From positions 1 through 36,117 of the forward strand of contig NZ_LYVQ01000039.1 of the NCBI RefSeq assembly GCF_001984095.1: 36,117 bases of DNA. The letters run 5' to 3'. Source of the stretch: Pelomonas sp. KK5. GTDB taxonomy: Bacteria > Pseudomonadota > Gammaproteobacteria > Burkholderiales > Burkholderiaceae_C. The translations under genes were made by a program, and so were the position numbers. A model generated the notes under the pieces. It made no database searches. It worked only from the letters and a program-made list of their open reading frames with translations, and had not been told where the DNA came from. This document shows positions 32,909 through 36,117 of the stretch, piece after piece (position 1 is the first letter of the stretch; every line of letters starts with the position of its first letter).

Positions 32909-33826
32909 TCAGGCCTCGACGAGTGCCTTCTTCATCTTCTTCATCGCCGCCACCTCGATCTGGCGGATGCGCTCGGCCGACACGCCGTATTCGGCTGCCA
33001 GCTCATGCAGCGTCATGCCGCCGGAGGAGTCGTCGTTGACCTTCAGCCAGCGTTCCTCGACGATGCGGCGGCTGCGCGGGTCCAGCGTCTCCAGCGCGCG
33101 GGCGATGCCGTCGCCGGCCATCGCGTCGCGGGCCTGCGATTCGAGCACGCGGGTCGGCTCCTGCGACTCGTCGGCCAGGTAGGCGATCGGGGCGTAGCTC
33201 TCGCCGTCGTCGTCGGTCTGCGGCTCCAGGGCCACGTCGCCGCCCGACAGGCGCGTCTCCATCTCGAGCACTTCCTCGCGCTTCACGTTGAGCGTCGTCG
33301 CCACCTGCTCCAGCTGCGCCTCGGTGAGGCTCATGCGGTGCGTCTGGTCGTCGGCCACGCCTTCCTTCATGCTGTGCTTCATCGAGCGCAGGTTGAAGAA
33401 CAGCTTGCGCTGGGCCTTGGTCGTGGCGACCTTGACCATGCGCCAGTTCTTCAGGATGTATTCGTGGATCTCGGCCTTGATCCAGTGCATCGCGTAGCTG
33501 ACCAGGCGCACGCCCTGGTCCGGGTCGAAGCGCTTGACGGCCTTCATCAGGCCGACGTTGCCTTCCTGGATCAGGTCGCCCTGGGGCAGGCCATAGCCGA
33601 GGTACTGGCGCGAGATGGACACCACCAGACGCAGGTGGGACATCACCAGCCGGCCGGCGGCATCGAGGTCGCCGCTCTCGCGCAGCTTGCGGGCGGAGGA
33701 GGCTTCTTCCTCGGCGGTCAGCAGCGGCAGGCGGTTGACGGCGGAAATATAGGCATCGAGGTTACCGAGCGAGGGCACCAGCGCCCAAGGGTCCCGGACC
33801 GTCAGTGCAGCAGTTGGGTGAGACAT
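32909..33826 (-). CDS. rpoH: RNA polymerase sigma-32 factor RpoH
   Basis: 305-residue heat-shock sigma factor. Region 1.2/2.1 begins LGNLDAYISAVNRLPLLTAEEE; region 2 has SHLRLVVSISRQYLGYGLPQGDLIQEGNVGLMKAVKRFDP and YAMHWIKAEIHEYILKNW. The RpoH box is QRKLFFNLR, and the region 4 HTH is MTLHELAAEYGVSAERIRQIEVAAMKKM. ATG at 33826 matches the usual N-terminus but has a poor ribosome binding site. An in-frame ATG at 33871 would add 15 residues and lies 8 nt after the -10 box. A perfect CIRCE operator covers the promoter. Confidence 0.96.
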   Translation of the reverse strand: MSHPTAALTVRDPWALVPSLGNLDAYISAVNRLPLLTAEEEASSARKLRESGDLDAAGRLVMSHLRLVVSISRQYLGYGLPQGDLIQEGNVGLMKAVKRFDPDQGVRLVSYAMHWIKAEIHEYILKNWRMVKVATTKAQRKLFFNLRSMKHSMKEGVADDQTHRMSLTEAQLEQVATTLNVKREEVLEMETRLSGGDVALEPQTDDDGESYAPIAYLADESQEPTRVLESQARDAMAGDGIARALETLDPRSRRIVEERWLKVNDDSSGGMTLHELAAEYGVSAERIRQIEVAAMKKMKKALVEA

Positions 33827-33879
33827 CGTGGTCGTCGCTTTCTTTGGCAAACCGAACCTTGTGGGTTCCATGGGCACAG

Positions 33880-33909
33880 ATATTAGCACTCCGTCAGGAT
33901 GAGTGCTAA
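33880..33909 (-). promoter_or_regulatory. Core promoter of rpoH embedded in CIRCE
   Basis: On the minus strand, TTAGCA (33909-33904) and TAATAT (33885-33880) are separated by 18 bp. The -35 matches four of six consensus positions and the -10 is AT-rich. Both boxes overlap the two CIRCE arms, so bound HrcA would block polymerase. The expected start site is near 33873. Confidence 0.55.
33883..33909. promoter_or_regulatory. CIRCE operator (HrcA binding site) upstream of rpoH
   Basis: TTAGCACTC (33883-33891), nine bases, then GAGTGCTAA (33901-33909): a perfect match to the known CIRCE consensus, including the 9-bp spacer. CIRCE is the operator of the heat-labile repressor HrcA, normally found before groESL or dnaK. 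Here the only gene downstream is rpoH, whose promoter it overlaps. Confidence 0.95.
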
Positions 33910-33939
33910 GGCTCTGGGGTTTCCGGCGAGGCCTACGAT

Positions 33940-33950
33940 TTCAAGCGAGA
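33940..33950 (-). promoter_or_regulatory. Possible sigma-32 -35 element upstream of the CIRCE-controlled promoter
   Basis: On the minus strand TCTCGCTTGAA resembles the sigma-32 -35 consensus (CTTGAA preceded by a TCTC-type extension). At the 13-14 bp spacing only CCGGAA is found, a poor match to the CCCCAT-type -10. It may be a remnant or a chance match; if real it would give rpoH autoregulation. Confidence 0.25.
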
Positions 33951-34040
33951 TACAGCGATAGTGTTTACCAACTTACGAAGATTTGCCTGCGATTGTCGGC
34001 CGTCGATCCGGTTGCCTCGGAACGGCAAGTCGCGTGCCAG

Positions 34041-36117
34041 TCAGCGGGCCCGCCGGCGGTTCTGCACCCGCATGCCCTGGCGCAGCGGCAGCGAGACGGC
34101 GCAGGCCGAGCCCGGCGCGGCGGTGGTGCAGCTCTGGAAGTCCGCCTGCAGCAGCAGCCCGTCGCCGTTGCGGGCGTTCAGGCGCAGCTGCTTGAAGCTG
34201 CTGGCATCGAGGGCGGTGCTGCCCAAGGTGGCCGACAGCGCGGCGGTGAGCGCACCCGGGGCCACGGGCAGCGTCGCCAGGATCGAGCCGGTGTTGCACA
34301 GCGAGTCGGTGCACAGCTGGGCGGTGGAGAGCGCGGGCGGTGGGCTCGGCAGCGTCCAGCTGGCGCTGAGGTTGACCTTGGCCGCCGCCGCTCCCTTGAG
34401 GCCGGCCAGGGCGGTGGCGCTGGCGGTGGCCAGCGAAGGCCAGGGCTGGCTGGCCAGCGCGGTGGACAGCGGCGGCACCGCCGCCAGGTCCAGGCTGAAG
34501 GTGCTGGCCGGCGTGCTGCAGCTGTCGTCGCTGTACAGCGCCACCTTCAGCGAGTGGCCCACGGCGAAGTTGCGCACGAGCGCGTCGCCGTCGCTGCCGT
34601 CCGGCAGCGGGATCCAGCGGTCGTCGTTGCCGCGGATGGCGCCGGTCGTCGGGTCGCCGCTGAGCTGGCCGTTCACCGCGTCCACGGTCCAGATCGACAG
34701 GTTCGTCGATCCGGTGCCGGGCTTCATATAGGCGAGCGTCACGTCGCCGCCGTTCGGATCGGCCTGCGTGACGCGGGCGCACAGCGCGCCGGACAGCGTC
34801 GAGATGCCCACGCCGATGCTGCGCAGGTAACTGTCTACCTGAGCGCCACCGTCGACCCGGCGCAGGCGCTGCACGCGCACCTCGGCGCTGGTGGGGAAGG
34901 GCTGCGCGTCGCCATAGAACAGCCAGGTGCCGTTGCCCTGCCAGGCCACGGACTGGTTCTGAGCGAAGGTCAGCAGCGCGCCGGCGGGCGTCTGCGCCAC
35001 CATGCTGACGCGGCAGACGGGCGTGCTGCCGCTGAAGTCGCAGCGGCCCAGCTGCGGGGCCAGCAGCTTGGTGCCGTACTTGTAGGTGCCGTCGCTGAAG
35101 ATGCCGGTGCCGATCACATTGCACAGGCCGGCGCCGATGTCGGCGCCGGTGAAGGCGATGTTGGCCAGGTTCATGCGCGCGTTGGGCGCCATCAGGCCCG
35201 GCATGTTGGCGCTGCAGGCGCTGGCGGAGGCCATCGCGGCCGTCATCTGGGTGAAGAGGGTGCTGATGCCGGCCAGCGTCACGCCGGCGGCGCCGGCGTC
35301 GATGGTGAGCTCGCCGCCCACGCCGGTGCCGGTCAGTGTGACGATGCCGCCGCCCATCCGCGATTCGAGCTGCACATAGGGCGAGCCGTCCTGGCCGACG
35401 GTGACGGCCACGCTGTCCAGCAGCCGGTCATAGCCGCTGCGCGAACCGGCGGTCAGCGCGGTGGTGAGCAGGTCGGCGTTGGACGCCAGGCCGGCATCGG
35501 CCAGGGCCGGCGCCAGGGCCGTCTGCAACTGGCCCTGCGCCGCGGCCACCGCGGTGGCCGACAGGCCGGTCACCGCCCCGCTCATCGGGCTGCTCGGGTT
35601 GACGCCCGAAGCCAGCAGCACGACGGCGCTGGTCAGCGGCGTGATCTGGGCCGTGCCGCCGCTCTGCGTGACCGAGTAGAGACAGGTGTAACGGTCCACC
35701 GCGTAGCCGCAGGCGGCCAGCCGGAACGGGCCGGTGCCGCTGGCCAGCGCGATCGGGCCGTAGCTGCCGCTGGCGGGCACGCTGGTATTGCTGGCCATGC
35801 TCTTGCCGGTGGCGTCGAGGATGCTCAGCGTCACATTGCTCATCGCGATGCCGGCCGAGACCGTGCCCGAGACGGGCGTGGGCGGCGGGGCCGGCGATGG
35901 CGACGGAGAGGGGGATGGTGACGGTGAGGGAGAAGGCGACGGCGATGGAGACGGGCTCGGCGATGGCGAGGGAGACGGAGATGGTGAGGGAGAAGGGGCC
36001 GGCGAAGGAGAGGGTGATGGAGACGGAGACGGGCTCGGGCTCGGACTCGGACTCGGCGAAGGCGAAGGCGAAGGCGAAGGCGAAGGCGAAGGACTCGGCG
36101 TGGGCGACGGAGAAGGC
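34041..36117 (-). CDS. Exported Pro-Ser-repeat protein, N-terminus outside the window
   Basis: At least 691 residues; the frame is open to the right edge, so the start and any signal peptide or lipobox are missing. The visible N-terminal part is about 80 residues of almost pure Pro-Ser dipeptides (35874-36116), a flexible linker. It leads into an Ig-like start (VSGTVSAGIAMSNVTLSILDATG) and an ITPLTSAVVLLASG motif. Both features are usual in large Burkholderiales surface lipoproteins. The rest is rich in Ala, Gly, Ser and Thr with spaced Cys (for example ARVTQADPNGGDVTLAYM, DDSCSTPASTF, LCTDSLCNTGS), suggesting disulfides outside the cytoplasm. No enzymatic motif is recognised. rpoH follows on the same strand after 214 bp. 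Confidence 0.8.
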   Translation of the reverse strand, partial: PSPSPTPSPSPSPSPSPSPSPSPSPSPSPSPSPSPSPSPAPSPSPSPSPSPSPSPSPSPSPSPSPSPSPSPSPSPAPPPTPVSGTVSAGIAMSNVTLSILDATGKSMASNTSVPASGSYGPIALASGTGPFRLAACGYAVDRYTCLYSVTQSGGTAQITPLTSAVVLLASGVNPSSPMSGAVTGLSATAVAAAQGQLQTALAPALADAGLASNADLLTTALTAGSRSGYDRLLDSVAVTVGQDGSPYVQLESRMGGGIVTLTGTGVGGELTIDAGAAGVTLAGISTLFTQMTAAMASASACSANMPGLMAPNARMNLANIAFTGADIGAGLCNVIGTGIFSDGTYKYGTKLLAPQLGRCDFSGSTPVCRVSMVAQTPAGALLTFAQNQSVAWQGNGTWLFYGDAQPFPTSAEVRVQRLRRVDGGAQVDSYLRSIGVGISTLSGALCARVTQADPNGGDVTLAYMKPGTGSTNLSIWTVDAVNGQLSGDPTTGAIRGNDDRWIPLPDGSDGDALVRNFAVGHSLKVALYSDDSCSTPASTFSLDLAAVPPLSTALASQPWPSLATASATALAGLKGAAAAKVNLSASWTLPSPPPALSTAQLCTDSLCNTGSILATLPVAPGALTAALSATLGSTALDASSFKQLRLNARNGDGLLLQADFQSCTTAAPGSACAVSLPLRQGMRVQNRRRAR
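36055..36090 (-). repeat. (GGCGAA)6 perfect hexanucleotide array inside the Pro-Ser linker
   Basis: Six uninterrupted copies of GGCGAA on the plus strand encode Ser-Pro repeats on the minus strand. The unit is two codons long, so slippage would change linker length without breaking the frame. Degenerate copies of the same hexamer pattern make up much of 35874-36116. Confidence 0.92.

Follow-up and report, generated by a model that had tools for sequence, protein, structure and literature searches.

Is the transcription of rpoH, the gene of the heat-shock sigma factor sigma-32, controlled by the HrcA repressor? The question is raised by a CIRCE operator found just upstream of rpoH in the window, as the whole stretch of 36,117 nucleotides analysed here is called. 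The control of sigma-32 has been taught from Escherichia coli, where it is exerted mostly after transcription and where HrcA is absent. A first-pass annotation had proposed that the operator is a perfect CIRCE lying on the putative -35 and -10 elements of rpoH, and that the sigma-32 regulon is thereby placed under HrcA. From the analyses described here, a probability of roughly 0.85 is assigned to the reading that the site is a working HrcA operator coinciding with the rpoH core promoter.

The palindrome at 33883-33909, TTAGCACTC-N9-GAGTGCTAA, agrees with CIRCE at every position, as had been annotated, and is the sole CIRCE in the window at up to three mismatches; none of 100 dinucleotide-preserving shuffles of the window contained a match. 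On the minus strand the reading order is CIRCE, 56 nt and the rpoH ATG (Table 1). This ATG (33826-33824, protein MSHPTAAL...) was taken as the start; the longest possible frame would begin at an in-frame GTG at 33889, but that codon lies inside CIRCE. In the assembly (6.87 Mb, 619 contigs), two CIRCE were found at up to three mismatches, one at rpoH (no mismatch) and one at groESL (one mismatch), and a reversed control pattern gave no match at the same threshold. The core GCACTC-N9-GAGTGC led to the same two sites, with one match for its reversed control. Elsewhere, a minus-strand frame (34041-36116) leaves the window; its Ser-Pro run is encoded by a degenerate repeat of six-base units at 35869-36117.

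Table 1. Features of the rpoH upstream region, in coordinates of the window (arms and spacer are named in rpoH orientation)
Feature	Coordinates	Strand	Basis
rpoH, sigma-32, 305 aa	32909..33826	minus	NCBIfam TIGR02392, 393 bits against a cut-off of 323
CIRCE operator, perfect palindrome TTAGCACTC-N9-GAGTGCTAA	33883..33909	.	pattern match
CIRCE left arm	33909-33901		
CIRCE spacer ATCCTGACG	33900-33892		
CIRCE right arm	33891-33883		
Predicted -35, TTAGCA (4/6 to TTGACA), in left arm, 18-nt spacer	33904..33909	minus	deduced; one-sided arm change to TTGGCA in relatives
Predicted extended -10, sigma-70 type, TGC-TAATAT	33880..33888	minus	AT flank comparison, rpoH against groES
Predicted transcription start, 5' leader of about 47 nt	33872..33874	minus	deduced from -10 position

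Absence of hrcA from the genome had been named in the first-pass annotation as evidence against its proposal; one hrcA is present, with both the HrcA C-terminal and the DNA-binding Pfam domains. No CIRCE (up to three mismatches) precedes this gene, and the best sigma-32 promoter match before it has five mismatches, within the range of resampled sequence. Upstream of groESL, a sigma-32 type promoter, CTTGAAA-N13-CCCTAT, with one mismatch (equalled in 1 of 200 resamplings), is followed by CIRCE. This groESL CIRCE (L002, G000:C101:17913-17939) is followed by TAT, as at rpoH and unlike 34 other groES sites.

Relatives share the arrangement. Among 150 genomes from this family, counting that of the window, rpoH scored over the model cut-off in 146 and at least one CIRCE (up to three mismatches), usually two, was found in 149. 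Coordinates were compared for 37 further relatives of the 149, taken among the matches listed and excluding one genome with a CIRCE and no listed rpoH (G008). CIRCE precedes rpoH in 36 of these 37 relatives, among the matches listed, and thus in 37 of 38 genomes with the window's, the operator lying 91-154 nt upstream of the domain match for rpoH. Likewise, a CIRCE with up to two mismatches was present at all 30 rpoH loci fetched from the family, and a CIRCE at 33 of 34 from the order, these samples being non-random, since all 30 loci from the family and 30 of the 34 from the order were taken as the top-scoring matches to rpoH. For the single order locus lacking the operator (L065), hrcA was not found in the genome either.

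The distribution of the site was then surveyed over the class (beta plus gamma), using about one genome per family (140 genomes, 105 with hrcA). Outside the window's family, 129 rpoH loci from 128 genomes were examined, one genome (G296) having two loci and another (G378) being kept with an rpoH below cut-off; 10 of the 138 genomes had no usable rpoH and were not counted. In the interval from 450 nt upstream to 90 nt downstream of the approximate rpoH start, and with up to four mismatches allowed, CIRCE was found upstream of rpoH at 88 of 97 loci with hrcA in the genome (45 of them perfect) versus 5 of 32 without (Fisher p 2.5e-15, kinship ignored), leaving nine loci of hrcA genomes without the operator. 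The reversed pattern occurred at none of the 129 loci. An RpoH tree requires no fewer than 21 changes of hrcA and 19 of CIRCE; where its branches are well supported, five independent pairs gave a mean of 4.4 in the expected direction and 0.0 in the opposite one (median p 0.125, the pairs being too few for significance). A phylum sample provided 19 rpoH loci from hrcA-less class genomes, of which one belongs to the class survey as well; no CIRCE was found at these 19 loci, the best match having at least six mismatches.

Several individual loci illustrate how operator and repressor vary. Five loci (L198, L089, L154, L199 and L091) carry CIRCE with 0-3 mismatches before rpoH in genomes where no hrcA was found, which may be due to gaps in the assemblies or to the repressor having been lost recently. 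One hrcA-bearing genome (G491) has a symmetric variant, TTAGCAGTC-N9-GACTGCTAA, at rpoH; in its congener G487 (about 40 contigs, listed as 100% complete) hrcA was not found and the left arm has decayed. GGAACTT-N16-TCCAA is retained there, as are the right arm and the -10 extension that follows it. In family f60, one locus (L111) has TTAGCAGTC-N9-GACTGCTAA, with both arms changed symmetrically, and another (L086) has TTAGCAGTC-N9-GATTGCTAA; these changes suggest an altered HrcA specificity in that lineage. In a further genome (G330, contig C39), hrcA (148762-149427) lies about 2.6 kb upstream of rpoH (152037-152840) on the same strand.

The best surviving alternative is that the operator is inherited and idle, sigma-32 being controlled mainly through translation and stability, as in E. 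coli, with HrcA occupancy playing a minor part. The largely post-transcriptional control of sigma-32 in E. coli speaks for it. Against it, the CIRCE arms hardly vary from family to family, in contrast to the wider flanks and most positions of the spacer, and the site has mostly been lost where hrcA was lost; an idle operator is accordingly considered improbable.

Beyond the class, 40 rpoH loci were chosen among the matches listed, in two sets of 20. No CIRCE was found at the 20 loci of the first set, although 17 of those genomes have hrcA, and the second set (12 with hrcA) gave three sites. These three belong to relatives from a single family (L402, L405 and L409), by descent or convergence. 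Two outside-class loci from hrcA genomes (L119 and L120) have no CIRCE at rpoH. Because the site is rare in outside-class loci, its link to rpoH is mainly a feature of the class, together with Geobacter as described in the accessible part of PMC545781.

When the 93 class loci with the operator (88 with hrcA and five without) were aligned on CIRCE, which ends a median of 26 nt before the approximate rpoH start, three further conserved blocks appeared. The first, GGAACTT, occupies -16 to -10 relative to the left arm, its individual bases being found in 48-73% of the 93 loci; at that place 37 of the loci match with at most one mismatch and 52 with at most two. The second block comprises spacer bases 1-3, which are T (69%), A or C, and A (76%), and which with the TC ending the left arm form TCTAA or TCTCA, exactly 16 nt past GGAACTT. 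In the third block, A/T-A-T follows the right arm, giving TG-C-TAA(A/T)AT.

The third block, TGCTAA[A/T]AT, fits an extended -10 element for a housekeeping sigma factor of the sigma-70 type. Its AT, at the second and third base after the right arm, is present at 29 of 30 rpoH loci in the family, 25 of 33 in the order and 64 of 93 in the class, and at none of the 34 groES CIRCE of relatives (0/20 family, 0/14 class). An extension of the operator itself was ruled out as its origin, since AT in the mirror position, ahead of the left arm, is seldom seen at rpoH (4/93 class, 0/33 order, 0/30 family). The arms themselves also drift on one side: the third base of the left arm has changed from A to G, giving TTGGCA and thus a sequence nearer to the -35 consensus, at 28 of 93 class loci, against two with the mirror change in the right arm (p 9e-7, kinship ignored). 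The same bias holds in the order (10 versus 0 of 33) and in the family (6 versus 0 of 30), and at groES the counts are 0 versus 1 of 20 (family) and 1 versus 0 of 14 (class). Such one-sided drift is the expected product of a -35 element under the operator.

In the window, TTAGCA (33909-33904), 18 nt and TAATAT (33885-33880) with its TG extension together agree with the consensus at 8 of 12 positions, a weak match. The TGCTAA of this putative element is part of the CIRCE right arm, and TAT follows directly after the arm. The sigma-70 promoter scan of the window listed no site at these -35 and -10 positions. The support for a sigma-70 promoter under the rpoH CIRCE is therefore comparative. Of the annotated overlap of CIRCE with a -35 and -10, what stands is a compatible TTAGCA/TAATAT pair with conserved flanks; on the other side are the 8/12 match and the silent scan. 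For other sigma factors, the best sigma-32 promoter before rpoH in this genome has three mismatches, within the resampled range, and the best sigma-E type match (GGAACTT-N15/17-TCnnA) in the window also has three, at chance level.

Elsewhere in the class, the first two blocks together fit a sigma-E type promoter whose -10 element would start in the left arm, in roughly half of the loci. When 200 nt upstream were scanned for GGAACTT-N15/17-TCnnA and compared with resampled sequence, class loci with both hrcA and CIRCE gave 25 perfect matches of 88 and 47 with at most one mismatch (resampled 0.000 and 0.013). The corresponding counts were 4 and 20 of 34 in the order sample, 6 and 13 of 30 in the family, where spacing to CIRCE is looser, and 1 and 6 of 32 at class loci without hrcA (control 0.003 and 0.019). 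At the 19 hrcA-less loci of the phylum sample, G487 included, a 300-nt scan gave six perfect matches and ten with at most one mismatch, as raw counts. A pattern for the whole composite at fixed spacing matched at least 119 stretches in named genomes; among the 119 matches listed, rpoH lies directly downstream in 116, and the other three stretches end 9-230 nt past the site, too short to tell. The record titles include Ferrovum, Thauera, Accumulibacter, Thiomonas, Halothiobacillus, Granulosicoccus and Woeseia.

These flanks also bear on a second alternative, slightly less probable still than an idle operator, in which transcription starts upstream and CIRCE acts mainly in the leader RNA, its inverted repeat forming a hairpin that alters the stability or translation of rpoH mRNA. 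CIRCE does lie within transcribed leaders at some other operons, and TATAAT within 20 nt before CIRCE at 8 of 20 groES loci of the family (0/14 in the class) would place the operator there at or after the start. At rpoH, however, the same element was found, even with one mismatch, at 0 of 30 family loci, and the flanks are promoter-like on one side only. Furthermore, within the family conservation is low at most spacer positions, which would form the loop, the RNA predicted for the leader and the beginning of the coding region, from 33873 to 33700 (the CIRCE hairpin lying outside) is no better folded than shuffles (z +1.85), and a search of 33500-34200 for a known RNA element gave no Rfam match up to E 1. 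A chance palindrome at 33883-33909 is ruled out by the shuffles, the assembly scan and the class survey with its reversed control.

A CIRCE before rpoH is already known as a kind. Permina and Gelfand (2003), cited in PMC545781, reportedly surveyed beta- and gammaproteobacteria and may already list rpoH sites there. Another comparative paper is that of Rodionov et al. 2004. In its accessible part (PMC545781), a perfect CIRCE was predicted at -51 of rpoH in Geobacter sulfurreducens and HrcA control was proposed, groESL and hrcA-grpE-dnaKJ of this organism also having CIRCE. The precedent mentioned in the first-pass annotation is thus borne out in part, for a delta-proteobacterium and not for the betaproteobacteria named there. 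Geobacter sulfurreducens differs as well in being one genome of the set, and this part of the account (PMC545781) mentions neither promoter overlap, nor a sigma-E element, nor an hrcA-linked loss of the rpoH site.

For the sigma-E half, support comes from experiments on a betaproteobacterium, according to the accessible part of PMC3490749 (2012): the region upstream of rpoH (fam) in Bordetella bronchiseptica contains a sigma-E consensus, and SigE holoenzyme transcribes from it in vitro. Neither HrcA nor CIRCE occurs in the main text of that paper on B. bronchiseptica fam (PMC3490749). The composite of sigma-E element and CIRCE precedes rpoH on a metagenome contig labelled Bordetella parapertussis (L267). 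In E. coli MG1655, GAACTT-N16-TCTGA lies upstream of rpoH and matches in geometry the sigma-E element next to CIRCE. It is the sigma-E promoter P3 of rpoH, under names also used in PMC3490749. Unlike the class loci, E. coli rpoH has no CIRCE (best match seven mismatches), and E. coli, a control in the HrcA family profile search, was not among the controls that matched. The groESL CIRCE of relatives has the same operator and presumably the same repressor as the rpoH site, and differs from it in lacking the AT flank (34 of 34) and in the TATAAT that precedes it in part of the family. CIRCE before rpoH is not reported in the accessible part of PMC10696704, and neither HrcA nor rpoH occurs in the main text of PMC5343134. 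In the accessible parts of the openly available literature, no prior statement of a sigma-E/CIRCE overlap at rpoH surfaced and no earlier account of a class-wide, hrcA-linked, dual-promoter architecture was found. The class-wide, hrcA-linked and promoter-interleaved architecture is thus probably new.

With CIRCE on the likely start signal of rpoH, the two heat-shock systems look wired in series, and the proposed placing of the sigma-32 regulon under HrcA gains support from the presence of hrcA, from 36 of 37 relatives (among the matches listed), from the tracking of hrcA over the class and from the promoter-like flanks, HrcA repression itself being inferred. In other HrcA proteins, activity depends on GroEL. 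When free GroEL is ample or the temperature low, HrcA would bind the palindrome and keep RNA polymerase off the covered -35 and -10, so that little sigma-32 mRNA is made. HrcA of Campylobacter has been described as an intrinsic thermosensor in the accessible part of PMC8533110. Once GroEL is busy with unfolded proteins, or HrcA is inactivated by heat, HrcA would be released and rpoH and groESL derepressed together. Newly made sigma-32 would in turn drive groESL from its CTTGAAA-N13-CCCTAT promoter, and groESL would thus be raised twice, directly and through sigma-32. Such a circuit would form a coherent feed-forward loop, which GroEL closes by negative feedback. At about half of the loci in the class, the sigma-E type promoter would lie under this operator as well, and HrcA may there gate the envelope-stress input. 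Expression in Variovorax WDL1 within a consortium, with rpoH, hrcA, groEL and groES raised and grpE lowered (accessible part of PMC5911999), is compatible with HrcA-rpoH wiring and is no test of it.

A broader evolutionary reading is, on balance, mildly favoured. The ancestral beta/gamma rpoH promoter would have been a three-input node, with CIRCE interleaved base for base with sigma-70 and sigma-E promoters and HrcA gating both; the hrcA-less lineages, E. coli among them, would be derived, having lost HrcA and the operator, a number of them keeping the sigma-E promoter. Operator and promoter share bases, and therefore a few point changes can separate them and the question is easily tested. 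Should HrcA act on rpoH itself in most class members with hrcA, the transcription of the master regulator would be set directly by chaperonin load, and for these bacteria heat-shock models and the phenotypes of hrcA mutants would need rereading. If the three-input reading is true, HrcA would report chaperonin load and gate both the housekeeping and the envelope-stress supply of sigma-32, and the two separate heat-shock circuits of the textbook would be the exception.
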